The notes under the pieces are model-generated. The model did no database searches. It was not told the origin of the DNA and was given only the letters and a program-made list of their open reading frames with translations. The position numbers and the translations under genes are program-made. From Chryseobacterium gleum (GTDB lineage: Bacteria; Bacteroidota; Bacteroidia; Flavobacteriales; Schleiferiaceae): 56,955 nt of DNA. The DNA lies in contig CAMCXO010000016.1 in assembly GCA_945883565.1 (NCBI GenBank), forward strand, positions 1 through 56,955, written 5' to 3'. Positions 43,931 through 56,955 of this stretch are shown here, in pieces (within the stretch, counting starts at the first letter, position 1; the number at the start of each line of letters is the position of its first letter).

Positions 43931-45693
43931 GGCAAAATGGTATTGGTTGAAACAGTACTCAAAAGCTCTTCTGCCAGGTTCTGATAGCTGTAAAATCCAT
44001 CAGACTTAAACTTATGAAAATTCATTTGTCTGCAAAAATCAATCAATTTCTTAAAGAAAAATGAAACCTTTTCATAGTCCTCAAAATCAAAATTAATTCG
44101 ACAAATTCTTAATATAAACTCAAGCATATATACCTGTCTTTCCATAGGACAATTCATATCATTTTCATCAAAAGAGTCTTGCTGCACAAAGACAAAATCA
44201 ATTAATTCACTTTTCCAAAATCCAATATGATACTCTATAGGTACTCCATCGTCACCTAAAATAGAAATCTGCTCGCGATATTCTAAACCTTTTTGAAGAT
44301 AAATACGCGCAGATGCCACAACATCCGGCCAATTGTCCGCTAGCTTAATACGACTTTCTTCAATAAAATCAGGATAATCGAGATATCGTGAATAAGATAA
44401 TAAAGGATCTATAGCTGGGTAGCGCTTGGCGTCTGCCCTTTTTTGGCTTAAAGCATAAAAGCAACGTGCTACTTTTCCGGTTGATTCAGTTACAGGTTCT
44501 TTAAAATTCCCTCCGGCAGGCGATACGGTTCCTAGGAAGGTTATGGAACCTATTTCGCCATTGTCCAATTCAACCTCACCAGCTCGGCTGTAAAATTGGG
44601 AAATGGTGGCAGGTAACTCAACCGGGAAAGCATCAGTTCCGGGCATTTCCTCTAGTCTATTCGACATTTCTCTGAGTGCCTGAGCCCAACGCGAAGTACT
44701 ATCGGCCAACAACAGAACTTTAAGACCCATATTTCTGTAATATTCTGCCAACGTCATGCCCAAATAAACAGATGTTTCACGAGCGGCCACAGGCATATTG
44801 GAGGTATTACATACTATGGTTGTTTTATCTTTAAGCTTTCGACCAGTACGTAAATCCTCAAGCTCAGGAAAATGGGTAAATATATCTACCACTTCATTGG
44901 CCCTTTCGCCGCAAGCGACTAAAATGACTAAATCAGAATCGTTGTTTTTGGCTATAGCCTGTTGAAGTACCGTTTTTCCTGTACCAAAAGCGCCAGGAAT
45001 AAAACCCGTTCCACCCTCGGCGATGGGGTTTAAACTGTCTATAACCCGTATACCTGTATGAAATATTTTCGTTGGACTGCGCTTAATTTTATACGATTGT
45101 AGACTCTTTTTTACAGGCCATTTTTGGAGCATATTGACATCCAATAGATTCCCTTTCTCACTTTTTACTTTAAACAAAGTTTCATCAGGTCTATAACCTC
45201 CTTCAGGTGCCGCTTCCATTACCTCATAGACTCCTTCCAATGCAAACGGCAACATTATTTTATGAGGAATCCAAAGTTCTTTAACTTCACCAAGCCATTG
45301 ACCAGCCACAACCTTAGCGCCAACTTTAACGAATGGCGTAAATTCAAATATTTCACTTTTATTTACTGAAGCCGTAATTTCACCAGGTTTTATAAAAAGT
45401 CCTGGAATTAAGTCTAAATCATTCTGTAAACCATCATAGTTTCTACTAATAATGCCAGGTCCCAATTCGGCTTCCAATAAATGTCCTGTAAACTCAACTG
45501 TATCTCCTATTCTTAAAAACAAACTATTCTCAAATAACTGCGCAAATATTAAATGGCGGCTAACTTTAATCACTTCTGCCATTAATTTGAGCCCCCGCGT
45601 TTCCACAAAACAGATCTCATTCTGCATAACTGGACCAAGCGGTTTTATGCTTAATAAGTTAGAGCTAATACCCGAAATTGTACCGGTGGTCAT
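43927..45693 (-). CDS. atpA: V-type ATPase subunit A (catalytic)
   Basis: A 588-residue catalytic subunit. The barrel (about 1-75) is followed by the A-type nonhomologous insert (about 110-190), Walker A GAFGTGKT at 234-241, CGERANEV with catalytic Glu263, ADSTSRWAQALREMS near 330, the EMPGTDAFPVELP arm, and the C-terminal helical domain. Slightly longer than many bacterial forms. It is coupled at both ends by 4-base overlaps (DUF2764 upstream, subunit B downstream). Confidence 0.97.
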   Translation of the reverse strand: MTTGTISGISSNLLSIKPLGPVMQNEICFVETRGLKLMAEVIKVSRHLIFAQLFENSLFLRIGDTVEFTGHLLEAELGPGIISRNYDGLQNDLDLIPGLFIKPGEITASVNKSEIFEFTPFVKVGAKVVAGQWLGEVKELWIPHKIMLPFALEGVYEVMEAAPEGGYRPDETLFKVKSEKGNLLDVNMLQKWPVKKSLQSYKIKRSPTKIFHTGIRVIDSLNPIAEGGTGFIPGAFGTGKTVLQQAIAKNNDSDLVILVACGERANEVVDIFTHFPELEDLRTGRKLKDKTTIVCNTSNMPVAARETSVYLGMTLAEYYRNMGLKVLLLADSTSRWAQALREMSNRLEEMPGTDAFPVELPATISQFYSRAGEVELDNGEIGSITFLGTVSPAGGNFKEPVTESTGKVARCFYALSQKRADAKRYPAIDPLLSYSRYLDYPDFIEESRIKLADNWPDVVASARIYLQKGLEYREQISILGDDGVPIEYHIGFWKSELIDFVFVQQDSFDENDMNCPMERQVYMLEFILRICRINFDFEDYEKVSFFFKKLIDFCRQMNFHKFKSDGFYSYQNLAEELLSTVSTNTILP

Positions 45694-46493
45694 GTCTTAA
45701 ACTGGTTAGAGTCTATGATTTGATTTAAATATAAATCTAATTCCTGAGAAAAGTTGTTTTCATTAATAAAAGCTTCTCGATACCTGTTTAAAATTGATAA
45801 AAGAATACTAAAAACATGCTCCCTCTGATATAACCTGGGCTTTGACATTTCAATGGCTCTGTTCTCAAGCATTTGGCCTACACATTGGTCCATACCCATT
45901 AAATCAGTCATCTCTAATGCCTCCCATAACGAAGTAACGCCCGGGAAATTCAATTCCTGTTGTAAATCTGGCTTTTGCTGAACGCTTAATTTAAACGGCG
46001 TCGCCACTAACATGGTTGTTTGAATATTCAAGTAATCTAGAATAGCTTGTCGAATTCCAAAAGAATATTCTACCAAATTCAAAGCGAAATAACATTTACT
46101 ATTTTTAAGATAATCTAAATGAAAAACAGCCAAACTATAAGTCAACTCAGGCCATTTAAACTGAGGCATTTTCGATCGATTTTCTTGATAAAACCACTGC
46201 ATAAAATGTGGCAATTCAGATCCAGGGCTTTTAATAGCATGCAATTCTGCGGCTGCTATTCTATAAAGCTTTTTGTGCCTGGGTGTTTTTATTCCAAGAA
46301 ATTTATAGGCCAAATAGTTACTTAAATTTAAATTATCGTGAAAATGACAAATCTGGCTCAACTCCTCGGCATCTTCGGCTTCTATTTGATCAAAAATACT
46401 TAAAAAATAACTCTGCAATTGGTCAGTGCTGTATTTTGTATCTTCTCTAAATACCGGAAGCGAACTAATTAAATAAAAATAATTTGCCCTCAT
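45690..46493 (-). CDS. DUF2764 protein, V-ATPase operon
   Basis: A 267-residue, mostly helical protein starting NYFYLISSLPVF, a DUF2764 hallmark. DUF2764 occurs inside V-ATPase operons of Bacteroidota, Chlamydiae and spirochaetes, where canonical subunit C is missing; it may fill the C (rotor-top socket) position, but I know of no proof. It overlaps subunit E and subunit A by 4 bases each. Confidence 0.82.
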   Translation of the reverse strand: MRANYFYLISSLPVFREDTKYSTDQLQSYFLSIFDQIEAEDAEELSQICHFHDNLNLSNYLAYKFLGIKTPRHKKLYRIAAAELHAIKSPGSELPHFMQWFYQENRSKMPQFKWPELTYSLAVFHLDYLKNSKCYFALNLVEYSFGIRQAILDYLNIQTTMLVATPFKLSVQQKPDLQQELNFPGVTSLWEALEMTDLMGMDQCVGQMLENRAIEMSKPRLYQREHVFSILLSILNRYREAFINENNFSQELDLYLNQIIDSNQFKT

Positions 46494-47095
46494 TCTTTAA
46501 AAAGTAATTTTTGACTTTCTTCTCTCAAAAAATCGGCAAACCATTGGTTAAAATCTTCTTCTTCCATGGCTATATAATATCCACCATCCTCGGGAACGAC
46601 TCTAAAACCAGCGCTTAAATCATGGCTAAAAGAGATTTTTAAACCATTTAGTGCTTCGGGTAAATCATTGGATATAGCTTTTCTTAAGCTTTCTTCAAAT
46701 TGAGCAGGCAATTCCAAACTATTTGGAGATTGCCACTTCTCTTTAATTAATGAAACTATAAAATCCGAATACCAATCTTTTGAATTTAATACCTGTTGAA
46801 CAGGTTCTTTAATAATAATTTTAAATAGCCCCCTAGTGATTAAATTTTTTGCCTCTTCCCTTGCTTTGTAATAAGCAACCTTCAAGTCGTCATTCGTCCG
46901 GTTTCGAATGTTTTCTGCTTGGTCTTTTGCCTTTACCAACAAACCTTCAGCTTCCTTTATTGCACCTTGTTTTATTAAATTTGCCTCTTCACGAGCTATT
47001 TCCAGCAATTTCTCTGCCTCTATCCTAGCCTTTTCCACACCTTCGTGGTAAAGCTTTTCACTTAGCTTGTTAAGATTTTCGAAACTCTGTGGCAT
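46490..47095 (-). CDS. atpE: V-type ATPase subunit E (peripheral stalk)
   Basis: A 201-residue stalk protein. It has a long alanine/glutamate-rich coiled coil (KARIEAEKLLEIAREEANLI, repeated EA and AE hydrophobic-heptad patterns, about 15-90), then a globular domain that caps A3B3 (about 100-201). Start chosen at the ATG at 47095 (MPQSFENL); an upstream TTG would add 13 unsupported residues. It is the first gene of the operon and has no subunit G partner here. A Crp/Fnr-like dyad lies about 90 bp upstream. Confidence 0.88.
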   Translation of the reverse strand: MPQSFENLNKLSEKLYHEGVEKARIEAEKLLEIAREEANLIKQGAIKEAEGLLVKAKDQAENIRNRTNDDLKVAYYKAREEAKNLITRGLFKIIIKEPVQQVLNSKDWYSDFIVSLIKEKWQSPNSLELPAQFEESLRKAISNDLPEALNGLKISFSHDLSAGFRVVPEDGGYYIAMEEEDFNQWFADFLREESQKLLFKE

Positions 47096-47185
47096 GTCTG
47101 CTTTACTTGATTTTACTTGACTTGTTAATCGCAAGGCTAACTCAATTCGACTATGCTATTTTAAGGCTTAAATCACAGGCCACAC

Positions 47186-47199
47186 ATGACGAAGGTCAT
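47186..47199. promoter_or_regulatory. Perfect palindrome ATGAC-N4-GTCAT upstream of the V-ATPase operon
   Basis: ATGACGAAGGTCAT is a perfect 5-bp dyad with a 4-nt centre, the shape of a Crp/Fnr-family site. It is nested in an outer dyad ACACAT (47182-47187) and ATGTGT (47204-47209). It lies about 90 bp before subunit E and inside the last codons of the upstream GluQ-RS-like gene. Regulation of the pump by a redox or cAMP-type regulator is inference. Confidence 0.35.
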
Positions 47200-47208
47200 T
47201 TTAATGTG

Positions 47209-48051
47209 TTAAGAAATATCAAGGTTAGGGAGGGTTTCCATTTTCCAAATAGAATACTGTTTGATGAAATCTTGCAACCCATCGTCACTTTTTATTGATT
47301 CCCAAACCGATGGGGCATTTCGACTTTTAGAAAGTTTATTACCCCTTTGATCCAAAACCAATGGATGATGGAAGAATTCAATGCTACGGTAATGTGTTAG
47401 TTCAAGCGCTTGCGCCAACTGCATTTGTAATATGCTCATTTCCCACAAATCCACTCCCCTCACGATAGCTGTTACCCCCATAAATTCATCCCATAAAACA
47501 GACTGAAGCGCGTATGAAGCAAATCCTTCCCTCCTCCATAAAATAAAATCTTTCCTATTAAAGCTATCCCTATTCAATTCTTCAAACTCAAACATTCTTT
47601 TATATGGAAAAATAAATGGCTTACTTCTAAAACGTATTGGTAAATTAAAAAGTAATTCGGTATTGGCTGAAGATGAACATGGGCAAGGATGGCCTTGCAA
47701 ATTGTCAATGATTTTTCTAGTACATTTACATGAATAAACCAAATCTTTTGAGTACAAAAACTTCAATTTTTCCTGAATTTTTTCAGTTGTTAAACAATGG
47801 GGTTTTGATAAACTTTGATATTCAATAAACGACTTCGGACCCATACCAATTTGAATGCCTAGCCTGTCTAGTACCCTAAAAATATCTTGTAAAAATGGTT
47901 CTCGTATTCTGGTACAGTCAAAATCATCGATTCTCAACCAAATATGGTAGTTGAATGCTCTTGATAACTCATTAACCAAAAGAAAAGCAAAGGCGTTGCC
48001 TTTATGCAAATACCCACTTGGAGTTGGGGCTATTCTGATTGAACGCGACAA
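47209..48051 (-). CDS. GluQ-RS-like class I aminoacyl-tRNA synthetase fragment enzyme
   Basis: A 280-residue protein made only of the GluRS catalytic domain, as in glutamyl-Q tRNA(Asp) synthetase, which places glutamate on queuosine of tRNA-Asp. The ATP-binding HIGH motif is HKGN (PTPSGYLHKGNAFAF), the acidic stretch is LRIDDFD, KMSKS is KLSKSR, and a Cys-rich insert (YSCKCTRK to HPCPC) forms a zinc site. There is no anticodon-binding domain. It starts at TTG 48051; no ATG lies upstream of the HIGH motif and a stop lies 7 codons upstream. Function as GluQ-RS is probable, not proven. Confidence 0.78.
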   Translation of the reverse strand: MSRSIRIAPTPSGYLHKGNAFAFLLVNELSRAFNYHIWLRIDDFDCTRIREPFLQDIFRVLDRLGIQIGMGPKSFIEYQSLSKPHCLTTEKIQEKLKFLYSKDLVYSCKCTRKIIDNLQGHPCPCSSSANTELLFNLPIRFRSKPFIFPYKRMFEFEELNRDSFNRKDFILWRREGFASYALQSVLWDEFMGVTAIVRGVDLWEMSILQMQLAQALELTHYRSIEFFHHPLVLDQRGNKLSKSRNAPSVWESIKSDDGLQDFIKQYSIWKMETLPNLDIS

Positions 48052-48135
48052 AAATGAAGATTCCAGGTTTTAAAGACACCAATGAAACATTAAAAACATA
48101 ATGAAATCAATTACTGGTTTGATCGGATAACAGGT

Positions 48136-48795
48136 TTATGGATTAATCTCACGCACACACCTAATAGAAAAACCACTATTCTTAAATCCATCTACCATAT
48201 ACATGCCTGCTTCACCATTTTGGATAAATCTTCCCCAAAGGCCCTGAGTATGACTTACCGTCGAACTCCACCAATAACCCGATTGACCAAACCCTCCCAG
48301 AAAACCATCGCTTCCTATAAAACCAGATAACTGCACATTAAAATATGAAGGCAGCGAGTTATCCGTATTTTTATTCATTAAATTCATACCGGCTTCTTTC
48401 TCTCCGCCAAAACTTAAAATGAGTGCGGACCACTCTGAGTGACTGGGTAGCCTCCAATTAGTCGGACAAATTCCTTTAATTTCTAAAGCCGCATAACCAT
48501 TGTACAAAAAGCCATTTTGATTTCGGCTTTCATTAGTTGAATTTGGTAATGTATAAGCTGCTGAATTCAATTCAGACCAAATTCCTGGGTTTTTAACCAA
48601 AATAATTGAATCCCCGCTCGAGAATTTCTTCGAGCGAAGGTTTTCAACCATCCACTCTAAATCACCAAAAACATGGGTTTTATATATGTTACCTTCAAAA
48701 TCTTTGACCTGACCAAATGCATAATGGCAAAAAAGCAAGCTTACCCAAAGTAGTAAAAAAAGTAGCTTGTTACCAGTTTTGAAATAGCGATTCAT
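48136..48795 (-). CDS. FISUMP-domain secreted protein
   Basis: A 219-residue protein with a signal peptide (to about CHYAFGQ) and one Fibrobacter succinogenes major paralogous (FISUMP) domain. The marks are VKDFEGNIYKTHVFGDLEWMVENLRS, ICPTNWRLPSHSEW, the GSDGFLGGFG stretch, YWWSST and the end SIRCVRE. Such proteins are exported and their role is unknown. No T9SS sorting domain or lipobox is seen. Its first 26 bases overlap the end of the universal stress gene in another frame. Confidence 0.86.
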   Translation of the reverse strand: MNRYFKTGNKLLFLLLWVSLLFCHYAFGQVKDFEGNIYKTHVFGDLEWMVENLRSKKFSSGDSIILVKNPGIWSELNSAAYTLPNSTNESRNQNGFLYNGYAALEIKGICPTNWRLPSHSEWSALILSFGGEKEAGMNLMNKNTDNSLPSYFNVQLSGFIGSDGFLGGFGQSGYWWSSTVSHTQGLWGRFIQNGEAGMYMVDGFKNSGFSIRCVREINP

Positions 48796-49654
48796 ACCGC
48801 TGATGTTTAGGTGTAAGCGACATAACGGGTACCTCAGAATGATAAATAACCTCTTGCATATCGCTCCCCAATAAGTTCGAAGCTATATCTACAGACTCGT
48901 TTTCTTCCATTTGCATGATTAAGTCACCATCTTGATTATAGGCAAAATCCAGAAATTCCTCTATACTCTTACCTGCTTTGGGTTCAAGGATATGACCTTC
49001 AACCAAAACACCCCTCTCATTTATGAAATTGACCACTTGATTCAAGTGCTTTTGCAAGATCAAAACATCATCGGCCTTTTTTGGCACGGCAACCACGGTA
49101 ATTTTTGAATTAAACAATCGACTGAAATAAAGTGCCATACCAACTTTTTCTTTAGAACGTCTATCCAGAACCAACGGGAAAATGATATTCTTTAAGCCTC
49201 TTAACCTACGAATTCCTCGGGTAGTTATCACAGGTATTTTAGTGTTCCCTACCGTTCTGTAAGCATTTGAGCCAATCAAACGTTTTTTAAAGTTAGAAGG
49301 TCGGCCATTGGTACCCATCACTACCAAACTGGCATCAATGAGTTCGGCCACCCTTGCTATCTCTTCATAAATGGTTCCATGTGCCAACATGGTTGATATT
49401 TTAATGCCTGTTTCTCTAAATTTCTCTTCAGCCAATAACAGCAAGCGGCTTTGAATCTGTTCCTTAACTTTTTCTGAATTTCTAGACTCATCCGAACCAA
49501 AAACTCGGGTAATTAAATCATTATCTTCGATTACCGATAGTAAAACGATTTCAGAACCCATTGCAGAAGCCAATATGCAAGCCTCATCAAGTGCAATCAG
49601 CGACTGTTCACTGAATCCTACAGGCACCAAAATTTTTTTCGTTTCAACGCTCAT
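48770..49654 (-). CDS. Tandem universal stress protein
   Basis: A 294-residue protein with two UspA domains. The first keeps a glycine motif (VVMGTNGRP then LIGSNAYR; GX2GX10GS, one residue longer than the usual spacing). The second is degenerate. The start is ATG 49654 (MSVETKKILVPVGFSEQS). It overlaps the FISUMP gene by 26 bases, implying co-transcription, and is divergent from the nucleoside phosphorylase 46 bp away. This is the second tandem Usp of the window; it is not adjacent to the V-ATPase genes. Confidence 0.88.
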   Translation of the reverse strand: MSVETKKILVPVGFSEQSLIALDEACILASAMGSEIVLLSVIEDNDLITRVFGSDESRNSEKVKEQIQSRLLLLAEEKFRETGIKISTMLAHGTIYEEIARVAELIDASLVVMGTNGRPSNFKKRLIGSNAYRTVGNTKIPVITTRGIRRLRGLKNIIFPLVLDRRSKEKVGMALYFSRLFNSKITVVAVPKKADDVLILQKHLNQVVNFINERGVLVEGHILEPKAGKSIEEFLDFAYNQDGDLIMQMEENESVDIASNLLGSDMQEVIYHSEVPVMSLTPKHQRYESLFQNW

Positions 49655-49699
49655 AAAAGCTGGGGGTTAGTTTTGCGGCGCGCAAGATAATTCAATCCA

Positions 49700-50572
49700 A
49701 TGCAACAAAAACCAATAGATCCAACACGCATCATTCTTGGAAAAGAAAATCGGGTATACCATTTAGGCTTGAGATCTGAAGAAATCGCCCCGCTCATCTT
49801 TACAGTGGGCGACCCAGAACGCGTTGCACTTTTTAAAAAATGGTTTACATCCATAGAACTAGAGAGGGTTCAAAGAGAATTTAAAACCATTACGGGCATG
49901 CGAAATGGCAAGCGATTTAGTGTAATGAGCACTGGGATGGGAGCCGATAATATTGAAATTGTGATGAATGAATTGGATTTACTTTTTAACTGGAATCTTG
50001 ATAAACTCGAAAGAAGAATTGGCTCTCTTAAACCAAAAATCGTTAGAATAGGTACCTCAGGCAGTATCCAAAGCAGCTTACCGGTTGACGCGATTTTATG
50101 CAGTACTTCAGCATTCTCTTTTGATGCTGTGCATTACTTCTACCCAACTAATCTAAGTAACTCAGAGTTGTCAAAAGCACTTAGCAAGCACCTCGATGCC
50201 TGGCCTTTACCTTCTGTTTTTGCCTTCGACAACCCGGAAGCCAAAAAATTTATGCAGAAAGCAACCCATTTCTACGAAGGTATAACATATTCAGCTTCTG
50301 GTTTTTATTCGCCTCAAGGGCGGTTTTGGTTAAAAGATAAAATGCCTTGGGAGAATCTGCCGTTGCACTTAAGCCAATTTGAATGGCAACACAAGAAAAT
50401 TACCAATATCGAAATGGAAACTTGCGCTATTTACCATTTAGGAGGCATCTTTGGTTTTGAAACTTTGTCGCTATCGGCCATTCTGGCCAATCGGCTTGAA
50501 GGAATTTTTTCGACTCAACCAGAAAAAACCATTAATAAACTAATTGAAAATGCTTTTGATTTGTGCCTTTAG
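49700..50572 (+). CDS. Nucleoside phosphorylase (uridine-phosphorylase-like)
   Basis: A 290-residue phosphorylase of the PNP/UDP family. The phosphate-binding VGDPERV motif, STGMGADNIEIVMNEL, RIGTSGS and the ribose-binding NIEMETCAIYHLGG motif near the C-terminus are present. Members split ribonucleosides by phosphate into base plus ribose-1-phosphate; a uridine or purine preference is not clear by eye. Single gene; a cysteine-rich small gene follows at 44 bp. Confidence 0.88.
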   Translation: MQQKPIDPTRIILGKENRVYHLGLRSEEIAPLIFTVGDPERVALFKKWFTSIELERVQREFKTITGMRNGKRFSVMSTGMGADNIEIVMNELDLLFNWNLDKLERRIGSLKPKIVRIGTSGSIQSSLPVDAILCSTSAFSFDAVHYFYPTNLSNSELSKALSKHLDAWPLPSVFAFDNPEAKKFMQKATHFYEGITYSASGFYSPQGRFWLKDKMPWENLPLHLSQFEWQHKKITNIEMETCAIYHLGGIFGFETLSLSAILANRLEGIFSTQPEKTINKLIENAFDLCL

Positions 50573-50616
50573 CATTATGTCACTAAACAATTAGTCTTTT
50601 TTTGCATTTGTTCAAA

Positions 50617-50796
50617 ATGGAATATTTTTTTCAATGCCCTTATTGTTGGCAAACCATTTCTATGGTACTCGAGCCCAAAAATAAAATCCAGACCTACATC
50701 GAAGATTGCGAAGTTTGCTGCAATCCAATTGAAATATCTTTTTCAGGGAATTCAAACGGGTTGAGCTCATTTGAAGCCCATTCTATAGAACAATAA
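50617..50796 (+). CDS. CPXCG-motif cysteine-rich protein
   Basis: A 59-residue zinc-ribbon-like protein, MEYFFQCPYCWQTISM, then CEVCCNPIEI. The CPYC and CxxCC pairs form the metal site of the CPXCG family. The ATG at 50617 is preferred; a TTG at 50602 would add five residues. Function unknown. It lies between the phosphorylase and the OsmC gene on the same strand. Confidence 0.82.
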   Translation: MEYFFQCPYCWQTISMVLEPKNKIQTYIEDCEVCCNPIEISFSGNSNGLSSFEAHSIEQ

Positions 50797-50850
50797 TGAC
50801 ATTAACATTCAATTGCTTTAATCGCTTTGTCAAATGCATATATTTCGGCC

Positions 50851-51282
50851 ATGGAAACAAACTTTCATGAAGTAAATCTATCTTCTTTGGGTAACATGCA
50901 CTTTGATACCCAAATTATGAATCATCACATTCAATTAGCTGCTTCTCCAGCCCATGGTGGCAACAACCAAGGGCCCTCACCCAAACCTCTCCTTTTGGCT
51001 TCACTGGGCGGATGTACTGGCTTGGATGTGGTCTCTCTTTTAAGAAAAATGCGTGTACACTTCGAAAAGTTAAACATTTCTGTGAAAGGTGAACTAAGTT
51101 CCGCTCATCCACAAACCTATACCCACATTTATGTTCACTACCACCTGTTTTCTAACGAGCTTGATGCTTTAGACAAATTGCAAAAAGCCGTAAACCTGTC
51201 GTTAGAACAATATTGTGGAGTGAGCGCTATGTTGCGAAAATCTTCTGAAATAATCCCCGAATTAACCATACACAAACCCTAG
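50851..51282 (+). CDS. OsmC-family peroxide-resistance protein
   Basis: A 143-residue OsmC/Ohr-type protein. The reactive cysteine in SLGGCTGLDVV and the resolving cysteine in QYCGVSAM are both present, with the family's SPKPLLLASLGGC. It reduces organic hydroperoxides with thiol help, usually in the cytoplasm. The ATG at 50851 is preferred; an upstream TTG would add eight residues. Followed 8 bp later by the M61 peptidase. Confidence 0.9.
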   Translation: METNFHEVNLSSLGNMHFDTQIMNHHIQLAASPAHGGNNQGPSPKPLLLASLGGCTGLDVVSLLRKMRVHFEKLNISVKGELSSAHPQTYTHIYVHYHLFSNELDALDKLQKAVNLSLEQYCGVSAMLRKSSEIIPELTIHKP

Positions 51283-51290
51283 TCTATCCC

Positions 51291-53150
51291 ATGAAAAAGA
51301 TCCTCTTTTCTGCCTTGGTTTTTTGTTTAAACCTCGAACTATCTTCTCAAAATGTTCAGGCTGTAAGTACTCCGACCGAAACCAAAGTCTTAATTGACTT
51401 AAACACCTATTCTACAAATACTTTAGAAGTACAAGTCGAATTCCCAAAGAATAATCTGGAAAAAGTGCATTATTTCATGCCGAAGGTTATCCCGGGTACA
51501 TACAGCAGTAATAATTATGGCAGGTTAATCGAAAGCATTACTGCACTCGATCAAAACGGAAAATTGCTAAGCGTTAACCGAATTGATGAAAACAAATGGG
51601 AAATAAACGATGCTAAAAACCTGAAATTCTTAAAGTATCGAGTTAAAGACAGCTTCGATGACCTTGCTGATAAAGAGATTTTCAGGCCTTCAGGAAGTCA
51701 ATTCGAAACAGACTATTTCGTTTTAAATCTGTTTGCCCTGGTTGGATATATTGAGGAATACAAAAATCAACCGTACCAATTAGAAATCAGAAAGCCTCAA
51801 AACCTTTATGGATCTACAGTATTAACACGTACAAAAAGTAACACTGAATCCGACGTTTTTAAAGCCAATAGTTATTTTGAACTTCACGACAGTCCAATTA
51901 TGTATGCTAAAGCCGATACGGCTTCCGCTATGGTATTTAATTGCAAAGTTAAAGTTGCTGTGCATTCTCAAACAGGCACTTTAAATGCTCAATCTGTTTT
52001 AAAAGAATCGCGAGATGTTTTAGATGCCATTGGTGTTTATTTAGGTAGAAAACTCCCGGTAAACGAATATGTTATTTTATTGCTGGCCGAAGAACTCAAA
52101 GAGGATATTAAAGGTTACGGTGCCTTAGAACACAATAAAAGCACTTTTATTTATATGCCTGAATATGACGCAGAGGAACTTTTAGTTGAAGTTAGAAATA
52201 TAGTAGCTCATGAATTTTTACACATCGTAACCCCTTTAAACTTTCATTGCGAAAATGTACACAAATTCAATTTTTACAATCCTAAAATGTCTAGCCATTT
52301 ATGGCTGTACGAAGGAATAACAGAATATACCTCTATGTTGGTACAAGTTCGGGCAGGATTGATTAGCCCGGAGGCCTTTATGAAAGACATGGAAGAGAAA
52401 ATGGACAACAGCGACAGCTTTAATTCATTTTTACCCATGACAGTTATGAGCCGAAATGTTATTTCTTTATTCAATGACCAATACTTAAACGTATATCAAA
52501 AAGGAGCTATTTCGGGTCTTGCCTTAGATTTGAAACTGCGAATTCTTAGCAAGGGTCAATCGGGCCTGGGAGATTTAATCAATAAACTAAGCAGTGTTTA
52601 CGGACCAGATACATTTTTTGTCGATAATGAACTATTCGACATAATGGTTAATCATAGTTACCCCGAACTAAAAGAGTTCTTCGCTCGTCATTACGAAGGA
52701 GCTGAACCTTTTCCCCTAGAAGAATTATTAGCAGAAGTGGGAATTCTATATAGAGAAAGCATTATGAGCTCAATAATCGATTTTGGCGACATAGGAGCCG
52801 ATTTTGACGAAACCCAACAGCGATTATTCATCACAACTATGGATGCGCCAAGTCCCTTATCCCAAGCTCTTGGACTAAAAGCAGGAGATCGATTAGAAAG
52901 TTTGAATAAAGTTCCTTTGCGCATGGAAACGAGCAGAGAAGTTTTTAAGAATTTTTTCGATAACATTGAAGAAGGTGAGAAGGTGGAAATGGAGGTTCTG
53001 CGTTTCGATAATAAAGGGAAATGGACTAAAATTAAATTAAAAGCAATTGCGCAATCTCGTCCCAGAGAAGTTCGAAATTATATCCAATGGGATGAAAATC
53101 TTACAACCGAACAAAGTGCACTTCGCAGTGCTTGGCTTAATTTGAACTAA
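51291..53150 (+). CDS. M61-family metallopeptidase with PDZ domain
   Basis: A 619-residue secreted peptidase with a signal peptide (to about LSSQ). An N-terminal beta domain is followed by the thermolysin-fold catalytic domain with HEFLH (His307, Glu308, His311) and the third ligand Glu341 in LYEGITEY, then a PDZ domain (about 515-600) with LGLKAGDRLESLN. M61 enzymes remove N-terminal glycine or small residues from peptides. No T9SS sorting domain, so periplasmic. Forms an operon with the M13 gene 9 bp downstream. Confidence 0.93.
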   Translation: MKKILFSALVFCLNLELSSQNVQAVSTPTETKVLIDLNTYSTNTLEVQVEFPKNNLEKVHYFMPKVIPGTYSSNNYGRLIESITALDQNGKLLSVNRIDENKWEINDAKNLKFLKYRVKDSFDDLADKEIFRPSGSQFETDYFVLNLFALVGYIEEYKNQPYQLEIRKPQNLYGSTVLTRTKSNTESDVFKANSYFELHDSPIMYAKADTASAMVFNCKVKVAVHSQTGTLNAQSVLKESRDVLDAIGVYLGRKLPVNEYVILLLAEELKEDIKGYGALEHNKSTFIYMPEYDAEELLVEVRNIVAHEFLHIVTPLNFHCENVHKFNFYNPKMSSHLWLYEGITEYTSMLVQVRAGLISPEAFMKDMEEKMDNSDSFNSFLPMTVMSRNVISLFNDQYLNVYQKGAISGLALDLKLRILSKGQSGLGDLINKLSSVYGPDTFFVDNELFDIMVNHSYPELKEFFARHYEGAEPFPLEELLAEVGILYRESIMSSIIDFGDIGADFDETQQRLFITTMDAPSPLSQALGLKAGDRLESLNKVPLRMETSREVFKNFFDNIEEGEKVEMEVLRFDNKGKWTKIKLKAIAQSRPREVRNYIQWDENLTTEQSALRSAWLNLN

Positions 53151-53159
53151 AAGAATACC

Positions 53160-55190
53160 ATGAAAATTCTCCTCCGCACAATCATACTTTCAACTTTTGT
53201 CTGGTCCTGTTCACCAAAAACAATCAACAGCGACCAGTATTCATCTTCGGGATTCAACCCTGAATACTTAGACAGCAACGTTCTTCCTTGTGAAGACTTT
53301 GCTGCTTTTACGTCTAATGGTTGGAAATCATTGAATCCAATACCGGAAAGTGAGGGGCGATGGGGGAGTTTTAATGTCTTGATTGAACAAAATAATGAGA
53401 AATTAAAAAATCTATTAAATGCTTTAGAGAACAACAAATTCGAAAAAGGCAGTTATCAGCAGCTAGTTAGAGATTTTTACATTTCAGCTATGGATACAAA
53501 TTCCATAGAAATCCTTAAATTACTCCCTTTACAGCCCTTACTTAACAATGTTAAATCTGTAAAAAATTTAAAAGACTTAAATCAAATACTTGTAGATTTT
53601 AAATTGAAAAGTATAGTTACGCCTATTTCAGTATATGTCTCTCCAGATAAAAAGAAAAGCGACTTAAACGTTCTGCATATTGGCCAAAGTGGCTTGGGCT
53701 TGCCTGATAGAGATTATTATTTGCAAAATGACCCAAAAAGCTTGAATATTTTAATTAAGTATGAAGAGCATATCGCTAAAATGTTAACCCTTGCCGGAGA
53801 GCAGAATGCCAATTTAAAAGCAAAAGAAATTTTAGCACTTGAGGCGAAATTAGCCGAATTACAAATGAGCCGCACTGACAGAAGAAATCCTGAACTAACC
53901 TATAATAAATTGAATACCCATGAATTAAATCTTATTCTTTCCAATATTAATGCTGAAACCTATTTAAAACAACTCGGTTACAGTGGCGACTATATTATTT
54001 GCACCCAGCCTGATTTTTTCAAAGGGTTAAACGCTTTGCTCCAAAATACTTCATTAGAAACTTGGAAGGCTTACCTTTCTTGGCATGCTATTAATTCCTA
54101 TGCCATTGCCTTGCCGAAATCTTTTAGACAGGAGCATTTTAACTTTTTTGGAAAGTTTCTAAAGGGGTTGGAATCTGAAAAACCGAGATGGAAATTGTCA
54201 ATTAATTTGGTGGAAAATGGCTTAAGTGAACAACTTGGAAGATTATTTGTAGACGCTTATTTCTCTCAAAACTCCAAAGAGAAAATTTCGGAAATGGTAG
54301 AAAATATCAGAGCTGCTTATGGAGAGCGAATAAAAAGTTTAAGCTGGATGGGTGATGACACCAAAGCAAAAGCATTGGAAAAATTAAAAGCCTTTACCTA
54401 TAAAATTGGATTTCCTGAAAAATGGAAAGATTACAACAGCTTAATAATGGATCGAGATAAATTAATCGAAAATATGATGGCGCTTTCAAGTTATACTTTT
54501 AAGGAAAATTTAGACAAAGCCGATAAACCCGTTGATAAATCAGAATGGTATATGGGTGCCCATGTGGTTAATGCCTACTACAATCCTAGTTTCAATGAAA
54601 TCGTTTTTCCTGCAGGTATTTTACAACCGCCTTTTTTTGACTCAGAAGCCGACGATGCCTATAATTATGGCGCAATTGGTGGGGTTATTGGACATGAATT
54701 TACCCATGGTTTTGACGATCAAGGTGCTAAATACGATAAAAATGGAAATCTATCTAATTGGTGGACAACAGAAGACAGTATAAGATTTGTTGAGTTAACC
54801 AGTAGGCTTTCCGACCAATACAGCGCCTATGAAGCTTTACCGGGTGAGTTTATAAATGGCAAAATGACATTGGGTGAAAACATCGCAGACTTGGGTGGCT
54901 TAACCATTGCCTACTATGCCTATAAAAGAAAAATTAAAAACTCAGATAAATTGCCTCTTATTGATGGCTTTACCAATTACCAAAGGTTCTTTCTAGGTTG
55001 GGCCGGAGTATGGCAAGTGCATTTTAAAGAAGAAACGCTTAGAGATCGTTTGCTAACCGATTATCACTCTCCTGGAAACTTCCGGGTAATTGGACCACTG
55101 AGCAATATGGAAGAATTTGTAAATGCTTGGGGATGCAAAGCTGGAGTAGGCATGACAAAGGCCGAGAAAGACAGAATTGTTATTTGGTAA
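53160..55190 (+). CDS. M13-family metallopeptidase lipoprotein (neprilysin/PepO-like)
   Basis: A 676-residue zinc endopeptidase. Signal peptide and lipobox near Cys17 (FVWSCS), then the M13 N-terminal domain (with FAAFTSNGWKS) and the catalytic domain with NAYYNPSFNEIVFPAGILQPPFF, HEFTHGFDD (His512, Glu513, His516), the third ligand Glu573 in GENIADLGG, and the typical end terminating in Trp. The C-terminal cysteine usual before that Trp is replaced, so the family disulfide is missing. Degrades small peptides in the periplasm. Operon with the M61 peptidase. Confidence 0.94.
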   Translation: MKILLRTIILSTFVWSCSPKTINSDQYSSSGFNPEYLDSNVLPCEDFAAFTSNGWKSLNPIPESEGRWGSFNVLIEQNNEKLKNLLNALENNKFEKGSYQQLVRDFYISAMDTNSIEILKLLPLQPLLNNVKSVKNLKDLNQILVDFKLKSIVTPISVYVSPDKKKSDLNVLHIGQSGLGLPDRDYYLQNDPKSLNILIKYEEHIAKMLTLAGEQNANLKAKEILALEAKLAELQMSRTDRRNPELTYNKLNTHELNLILSNINAETYLKQLGYSGDYIICTQPDFFKGLNALLQNTSLETWKAYLSWHAINSYAIALPKSFRQEHFNFFGKFLKGLESEKPRWKLSINLVENGLSEQLGRLFVDAYFSQNSKEKISEMVENIRAAYGERIKSLSWMGDDTKAKALEKLKAFTYKIGFPEKWKDYNSLIMDRDKLIENMMALSSYTFKENLDKADKPVDKSEWYMGAHVVNAYYNPSFNEIVFPAGILQPPFFDSEADDAYNYGAIGGVIGHEFTHGFDDQGAKYDKNGNLSNWWTTEDSIRFVELTSRLSDQYSAYEALPGEFINGKMTLGENIADLGGLTIAYYAYKRKIKNSDKLPLIDGFTNYQRFFLGWAGVWQVHFKEETLRDRLLTDYHSPGNFRVIGPLSNMEEFVNAWGCKAGVGMTKAEKDRIVIW

Positions 55191-55286
55191 GCCAACTTCG
55201 AGTGTGTTTTATTCGTTGAAAATCTCACGAGTAAATCAACCAACAATTTTTTTATTCTCCTTAACCATCTGCTAGAGCGTTATCGT

Positions 55287-55991
55287 ATGAAAACATTTAT
55301 ATTTTTCCATATTCCTAAAACAGCCGGAAGCAGTTTTAGGCACAGTTTAAAATCTCTATACGGTCAAGAAAATGTGGCATTTGTATACGATAAGCAAAAC
55401 CGCATTGAAGCCCTAAGTCAAGCTGTTGAAGCAAAGGTAGATGCCATTTGTGGCCATATAAGTTGGGATGTTTTTAGAGCTTCTGGCCTGCATTTAAGCG
55501 ATTTCGAAACATTCACTTTTCTTAGGCAACCTGATGATCAAGTAGTTTCTCATTTTTTGCACAAAATGCGAGAAAAAAAATGGAAACACAGCAAAGAAAT
55601 ATTTCCGGATTTTGAAGAATTTCTGAAAAGCCCTTGGGGCCAAAATTGGCAAACACGATTTCTTAGTGGTTTCACTAAAGAAGAGTGGGCACAAACTGAT
55701 GATAAGGAATTGTTCCATCAAGCACGGAAGCATTTGTTGGCCATAAATACAGTAGGGCTCACAGAAGCCTACAGCAAAACAATGAAATTATTGGGGTTCA
55801 AACTGGGTTGGAGAAAGCTACAAGAGGAAAAACGAAACATAACCAATGATTCACACACAGCCCACGTAATTAAGAAAACGTTTGCAGATGAAATCAAACG
55901 CATGAATTTATTGGATTTAGAACTCTATCAACTGGCCCAAAAACGATTTAACGACGATTACAATCAGTTGCCTTTTTGGAAAAAATTCTAA
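55287..55991 (+). CDS. Sulfotransferase-family protein
   Basis: A 234-residue P-loop-like sulfotransferase. The 5'-phosphosulfate-binding motif FFHIPKTAGSSFRHSL is at the N-terminus and a 3'-phosphate-binding FLRQPDDQVVSHF near 78 (Arg and Ser present). It would move sulfate from PAPS to a sugar or other hydroxyl; acceptor unknown. Single gene, with a 96-bp upstream gap in which I see no clear promoter. Confidence 0.85.
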   Translation: MKTFIFFHIPKTAGSSFRHSLKSLYGQENVAFVYDKQNRIEALSQAVEAKVDAICGHISWDVFRASGLHLSDFETFTFLRQPDDQVVSHFLHKMREKKWKHSKEIFPDFEEFLKSPWGQNWQTRFLSGFTKEEWAQTDDKELFHQARKHLLAINTVGLTEAYSKTMKLLGFKLGWRKLQEEKRNITNDSHTAHVIKKTFADEIKRMNLLDLELYQLAQKRFNDDYNQLPFWKKF

Positions 55992-56125
55992 TAGCGGCCG
56001 TTTTCATTTAGATGACATCTTTTTGTGCCAAACATCTTCTACCGCCAAGACTTTGAATCATCCACATTATTCAAATAAAATGTAAAAGCATTAATCACTC
56101 TAGGGCTCCTATTAAACCATCATTA

Positions 56126-56566
56126 ATTGACTTTAAACGTTTATCTGCCCACTTCAAACTTTCAACCACCCACTTCGTGCATTAATCTGTCGGCTTCTTC
56201 ATTTTTTTTGCCGACGTTTTCAATTCTACCGCAGACTTCAAACGCTCACGCACCGGCATCGAACAGTCATTAGTTGGCTTCAAGCTTTCATTAATAGGCA
56301 TTTTCAAATTTCTTACCGACGTTTTCAATTCTACCGCAGACTTCAAACGCTCCCGCGCCGGCATCGAACAGCCATTAGTTGGCTTCAAGTTTTCATTAAC
56401 AGGCATTTTCAATTTTCTTACCGGCGTTTTCAAATTATCACCAGACTTCAAACGCTCCCGTGCCGGCATCAAACACCCATTATTTGGCTTCGTGCATTCA
56501 TTAATAGGCATTTTCAATTTTTTTACCGCCGTTTTCAAATTATCTACAGCCTTCGAATGTTCAACG
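56126..56566. repeat. Tandem array of 21-bp units in a 105-bp higher-order repeat
   Basis: Twenty-one registers of 21 bp, consensus roughly three variable bases, then GRC or GGC, then TTCAA or TTTTCAA and a variable AT-rich tail. Units recur every fifth position: CAGACTTC-type starts lie at 56232, 56337 and 56442, with CAGCCTTC at 56547, exactly 105 bp apart. The first two complete 105-bp copies differ at 12 positions. Degraded units run upstream to about 56105. On the minus strand the array stays open as heptads of the LKxP type, but most changes between copies alter the amino acid, so coding is doubtful. Confidence 0.88.
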
Positions 56567-56581
56567 GCCCACACCGATAAC

Positions 56582-56609
56582 GTAGAGACAGGGCATGCCC
56601 TGTCTCTAC
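56582..56609. repeat. Perfect 28-bp palindrome (REP/MITE-like)
   Basis: Both strands read the same; each 14-nt arm is GTAGAGACAGGGCA. It sits directly at the end of the 21-bp array, where a further unit begins GCCCAC and is cut off. Palindromes starting GTAGAGAC are, from memory, scattered interspersed repeats in many bacterial genomes, moved by REP-associated transposases; not checked here. Confidence 0.8.
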
Positions 56610-56712
56610 AATCGCCCATACAATCGCCCAAAAGACCAACCAATTGAAAAAATTCAATAGCCGAAGGCTTAGAAAAAATCAATCCTAACACCCAAAACAA
56701 CATAAAAAAGAA

Positions 56713-56740
56713 AAACCCCGACCCTTTCAGCATGGCGACT
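56713..56740. repeat. 28-bp direct repeat, copy 1
   Basis: Contains CCCTTTCAGCATGGCGACT and matches copy 2 at 56881-56908 in 27 of 28 bases, 168 bp apart. The segment between looks like an interspersed intergenic element (it reads CCAGGGATTGCC on the minus strand, a phrase I recall from Bacteroidota intergenic repeats). Confidence 0.8.
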
Positions 56741-56880
56741 GGTATACAGCCGAAGAGGCTTAGTAAGACCACACGAAGGAGCTCGCCCAGCCGCAATTCT
56801 TCAATGGCAATCCCTGGCGCAAATCCCAAACAGCAACAATTAAGTCCCTAAAGTCCCATTTGTCCCAACAAACACCATTC

Positions 56881-56908
56881 AAACCCCGGCCCTTTCAGCA
56901 TGGCGACT
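56881..56908. repeat. 28-bp direct repeat, copy 2
   Basis: Second copy of the unit at 56713-56740, with one difference (A to G). The element presumably continues past the window end. Confidence 0.8.
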
Positions 56909-56955
56909 CAAAAAAAAGCAGAAAAAACAATTTAGACTAAAAACAAAGCCCCGAA

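Follow-up and report, generated by a model that had tools for sequence, protein, structure and literature searches.

In eukaryotic satellite DNA (e.g. alpha satellite), monomers are grouped in a higher-order unit, the sequence is specific to the species, and the period recurs between species. Satellite DNA with higher-order repeats is rarely kept in bacterial genomes. Direct repeats of about 21 bp, corresponding to two helical turns, are found in plasmid iterons and partition-site arrays, where they allow repeated protein binding. Another class of dispersed bacterial repeats, the REPs, is not known to be associated with the carriage of arrays. REPs are elements of 20-40 bp, and the hosts of GTAG repeats listed in the survey of this class do not include Bacteroidetes (PMC3733652). 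A literature search returned no description of arrays of the kind reported here.

In the window, by which we mean the whole stretch of 56,955 nucleotides that was analysed, positions 56126-56566 form a tandem array of 21-bp units grouped in 105-bp blocks. Both levels of order had been claimed in an earlier note on this DNA, and both are real and were correctly placed. Tandem Repeats Finder (TRF) reported a period of 105 with 3.2 copies, 88% matches and 0% indels at 56198-56538, together with an additional, weaker 21-bp row; at a score of 50 or more, no second tandem array was found anywhere in the window. The top lags in the autocorrelation of 56126-56575 are 105 (0.78) and 210 (0.68), followed by 231, 21, 126, 189 and 84; each of these is a multiple of 21. 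The regular 105-bp order holds from about 56198 and not before, where it had also been assumed. The 5' end of the array (56126-56197, plus strand) consists of diverged 21-bp units in the same register as the remainder, and the segment 56198-56566 (plus strand) comprises about 3.5 copies of a higher-order repeat of five diverged 21-mers, closing with a fixed 3' end, TACAGCCTTCGAATGTTCAACG. Alignment of the first two full 105-bp copies gives 12 differing positions, the very figure put forward earlier. The units adjoin head to tail and are non-coding, as at an intergenic bacterial tandem-repeat locus.

A perfect 28-bp palindrome, GTAGAGACAGGGCATGCCCTGTCTCTAC (56582-56609), follows 15 bp beyond the end of the array and, as the earlier note stated, starts inside the position that a further 21-bp unit would occupy. 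It is intergenic, carries GTAG at both ends and belongs to a set of 11 copies, and therefore resembles the GTAG-tagged REP class (PMC3733652); part of the structure thus has a named counterpart, which the earlier note had denied for the whole. From 56610 to the contig end at 56955 (plus strand) extends a mosaic of further dispersed intergenic repeats, the segment 56567-56955 having 94 matches in its own genome. Upstream of the array lies a sulfotransferase-like gene (55287-55991, plus strand; Sulfotransfer_2, Pfam PF03567), and no replication or partition gene was recognised beside the array.

The array is real but not single, as its first description implied: with high confidence, it belongs to a dispersed family of satellite-like, non-coding arrays that is specific to the species, has higher-order repeats and recurring ends, and lies amid further dispersed repeats. 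In its own genome (2.86 Mb, 64 contigs), the array sequence has 41 matches, which fall into 17 loci on 16 contigs, and an eighteenth locus (L219, contig C3, near 101 kb) was met in sampled stretches; because it was reached through searches and sampling, the total of at least 18 intergenic loci is a minimum. Of the 17 first-found loci, 12 are no more than about 3 kb from a contig end, so that copies are undercounted and the arrays may break short-read assemblies. A full array runs from a 5' leader of two recurring types through plain units, GCCGGCTTCAAACRTTCAACY, and 105-bp blocks to the fixed 3' end, which is identical at seven loci, and on to the palindrome and dispersed repeats. The block of plain units is optional, with up to about 30 copies, and is absent from the window array. 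Other parts also vary by locus: several arrays have no palindrome, some 5' borders are unique, and the arrays L029, L030, L033, L035 and L219 run on into a long diverged tail with lag-21 periodicity (lag-21 identity about 0.39-0.45). Array lengths range from 0.25 to 1.2 kb, and no gene context is conserved across loci. Copy number differs between loci by whole units, which supports the earlier suggestion of evolution by unit shuffling, and small indels are almost absent. Unit spacings across arrays are nearly all multiples of 21, with register shifts in a few arrays (spacings of 43, 62, 85 and 104).

Several other repeats were noted in the same genome. One leader, CGGGCTTTCCGCTCCAAGTCCTCGCCGCC...CCATGATTTTCTGGATTTAAGGATGGGCATGATTAATTC...GCAATCCCTGGCGCG, is a dispersed intergenic repeat that recurs 5' of arrays L021, L029, L033, L034 and L215. 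At L215 (16864-17226, contig C2), the same GC-rich leader precedes a 42-bp array of two alternating 21-mers, whose unit is a significant relative of that of the window array. A separate array at L228 (8699-9345, contig C34) passes from 21-bp units, CGAAGGTGAGTTACGAGTCTG, to 22-bp units, GTGAGTTCGAGGTATGTTGTAA, with about 25 copies. Additionally, a 36-bp tandem repeat, TACCCGAAGGGGGAGGTGGTTA..., is present at both L223 (203-285) and L230 (4897-4980).

Outside its own genome, the sequence of the family was not encountered. A dimer pattern of 36 bases, with up to 3 mismatches allowed, gave 163 matches in the own genome and none in four congeners, and the reversed pattern used as a control gave none. 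Searching 87 other genomes of the taxonomic family with a 735-bp array query gave nothing at E<=0.001, and neither GTDB r220 nor IMG/VR yielded the 21-base monomer pattern. A phage or plasmid origin was rejected, as the array is without match in either. Two congeners, the Cryomorphaceae MAGs CPBay_Spr15G08_3 and ERR2206770_bin.9, contain intergenic 21-bp or 21/22-bp arrays of different sequence (L064, L111 and L179 in G002; L094 and L051/L068 in G004). A core motif common to these species was suggestive by eye (CCGNGGTC, CCGGCTTC), but PWM similarity between the window family and the main congener arrays was not significant (p=0.13-0.27), and a shared core is therefore not claimed. Conservation of array position was rejected: the htpG locus carries no array in relatives, and at the sulfotransferase site G004 alone has one, a weak 21-bp array (L051) directly downstream of the ortholog of the window's sulfotransferase-like gene. 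Sampling of about 630 kb from other genera in the family brought no array of this kind to light, a short 21/54-bp repeat in G007 aside. A motif like GGAGTGTTCAATAAAGTGTGTCTA, with a possible resemblance to a transposon end, borders the congener arrays L064, L094, L051 and L111.

Base changes are frequent in the arrays and gaps are not. Over 640 aligned columns, the tails of L029, L030, L033 and L035 vary at 136 and show no gap, and with the L219 tail, a fifth copy found later, the variable columns rise to 154 and the alignment is still gap-free. Seven array ends, aligned over their final 336 bp, are similarly gap-free with 133 variable columns, whereas the flanks that array loci share contain 11 gaps, against 168 columns that vary. 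The comparison of 0 indels at 287 variable columns in arrays with 11 at 168 in flanks (Fisher p=2.2e-5) concerns stretches picked because they aligned from end to end, a few register shifts occurring elsewhere, and its p-value, like those that follow, is optimistic because related copies are not independent. Among the 105-bp copies, variability follows a 21-bp period (p=0.009) but shows no 3-bp period (p=0.53), and in the tails the corresponding values are p=0.03 and p=0.41. Scarcity of indels together with this period of variability argues for a constraint that follows the 21-bp phase rather than codons. Furthermore, the sequence drifts while the spacing stays almost indel-free, a hint that what matters is the distance between units, about two helix turns. 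The proposal that two-turn spacing serves binding or bending finds partial support as regards spacing, but none as regards intrinsic bending, since predicted curvature (a wedge-model estimate) was not exceptional relative to unit-permuted arrays, save for one exception in a congener.

We propose that a 21-bp unit was amplified first and that five diverged units then became the 105-bp higher-order unit. Inter-copy recombination, or mobilisation with the REP-like palindrome, may have brought the arrays to the intergenic sites that they now occupy, often in a composite ending with the GTAG palindrome. Selection for helical phase would be the reason for the scarcity of indels: the degenerate motif GRCNTY within GCCGGCTTCAAACRTTCAACY would recur on one helix face every two turns, and the arrays may be multivalent scaffolds to which a putative nucleoid-type or partition-type protein binds. 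Taken as a whole, this statement is tentative, and we give it a little less than an even chance. The 17 loci found by homology and the one found by sampling, with their spacings in multiples of 21, are consistent with it, as are the gap-free tails and array ends next to gapped flanks (p=2e-5), the variability periodic at 21 bp and not at 3, the interrupted reading frames discussed below, and the congener arrays of like period and other sequence. It fits less well with the unexceptional curvature, the lack of significance of a cross-species core for the main congener arrays, the mixture of 21- and 22-bp units at L228, the register shifts in a few arrays and the missing array at the htpG locus in relatives; in addition, the cognate DNA-binding protein is putative. 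A broader version, in which the two-turn (21-bp) helical phase of dispersed arrays, rather than their exact sequence, would carry the meaning in a Cryomorphaceae-type flavobacterial genus, seems to us doubtful; the arrays would then be a satellite-like chromosomal scaffold in bacteria, selected for phase, with a sequence that turns over between species.

A strong rival to phase selection, nearly as likely and itself somewhat below even, is that the arrays are a functionless neutral or selfish satellite. Slippage and unequal exchange would generate them, and recombination among dispersed intergenic repeats would carry them to new sites. The clean register would then be a by-product of whole-unit exchange. 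The species-specific sequence, the htpG site devoid of an array in relatives, the composite with many other dispersed repeats and the unconserved gene context all agree with such an origin. However, indels are missing in the diverged tails too, where units are too unlike for ready exchange, and neither the 21-bp-periodic variability nor the recurrence of the period with another sequence in congener arrays is readily accommodated.

The palindrome raises the question of how the family spread. Eleven GTAGAGAC palindromes are present in the genome, seven of them with an AGGG core, and all seven exact AGGG-core copies abut array ends, bearing out the expectation that similar arrays would lie beside such palindromes elsewhere; an imperfect eighth copy comes after a further array. 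Four palindromes of the GTAGAGAC frame, on contigs C14, C22 and C47, have a different core (GCAATGCATTGC, GCGATGCATCGC). A 150-aa Y1_Tnp (HuH) transposase, at most a candidate RAYT, is encoded at L030 (2557-3009, contig C23), about 1 kb past the array palindrome; its gene sits between short repeated ORFs (SPEGATYTNDGHRPS). Array and palindrome might form a non-autonomous mobile element that owes its movement to this or a similar Y1 (HuH) transposase, a reading compatible with either phase selection or a neutral satellite. The constant place of the GTAG-tagged palindrome 3' of the array, the nearby transposase gene and the two recurring 5' leaders point in this direction. We nevertheless consider it improbable, as several arrays are without palindrome, some 5' borders are unique, and REPs are short elements not known to carry arrays.

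Still less probable, and largely refuted, is a living or relict protein-coding repeat of 7-aa units with a frame under selection. It would account for a period of 21 bp, or 7 codons, for a 215-aa minus-strand ORF that spans the array (56182-56829), and for the rarity of stops when the 105-bp copies are read in minus frame 1 (4 versus 24 expected). However, the ORF has no Pfam match, is not preserved in other arrays and is regarded as spurious, and the same frame is rich in stops in the plain units (21 versus 14.8 expected). Plain units show some synonymous excess in plus frame 0 and minus frame 1, with stops above the expected rate, and the 105-bp copies show clear purifying selection in no frame. 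Among the four tail copies tested, stops interrupt five of the six frames in 4/4 copies and the sixth in 3/4, and omega-like (dN/dS-like) ratios lie between 0.88 and 1.21 for each of the six. From array to array, there is no one frame that stays open, and the changes lack 3-bp periodicity, so that the non-coding nature claimed at the outset is supported.

A structured non-coding RNA or folded single-strand DNA element is hardly credible, for although the arrays are intergenic and often 3' of a co-oriented gene (12/16, not significant) and the palindrome folds as single-strand DNA (z = -4.1), the array RNA fold is ordinary (z = 0.25 and 0.73) and tail windows are mostly near z = 0 with 2-3 compensated against 24-39 broken pairs in consensus folding. 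Rfam has no match in 45000-56955. A CRISPR array was rejected because the units adjoin without spacers, and a diversity-generating retroelement template/variable repeat because all change types occur, with no adenine restriction.

A non-coding family that tolerates base changes and hardly any small indels would lend itself naturally to testing selection on DNA helical phase, and the recurrence of the period with a different sequence in sister species adds to this value. Among known systems, REP/GTAG palindromes with RAYT-type Y1 transposases (PMC3733652, PMC3116915) share with this family a 28-bp GTAG palindrome, intergenic dispersed copies and a Y1_Tnp gene; unlike them, the palindrome here has only 11 copies, and its AGGG type does not stand without a satellite array but occurs exclusively at 21-bp array ends. 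Plasmid iterons and partition-site arrays resemble the family in their direct repeats of about two helical turns and differ from its many chromosomal copies and degenerate units. Bacterial intergenic VNTRs or minisatellites have the same tandem intergenic units with copy number varying between loci, whereas here a single related family, with fixed ends and higher-order repetition, occupies at least 18 loci and is nearly free of small indels. Eukaryotic satellites are alike in their higher-order unit of monomers, their species-specific sequence and their recurring period; in contrast, the arrays described here are bacterial, short, built on a 21-bp monomer and scattered over many intergenic sites.
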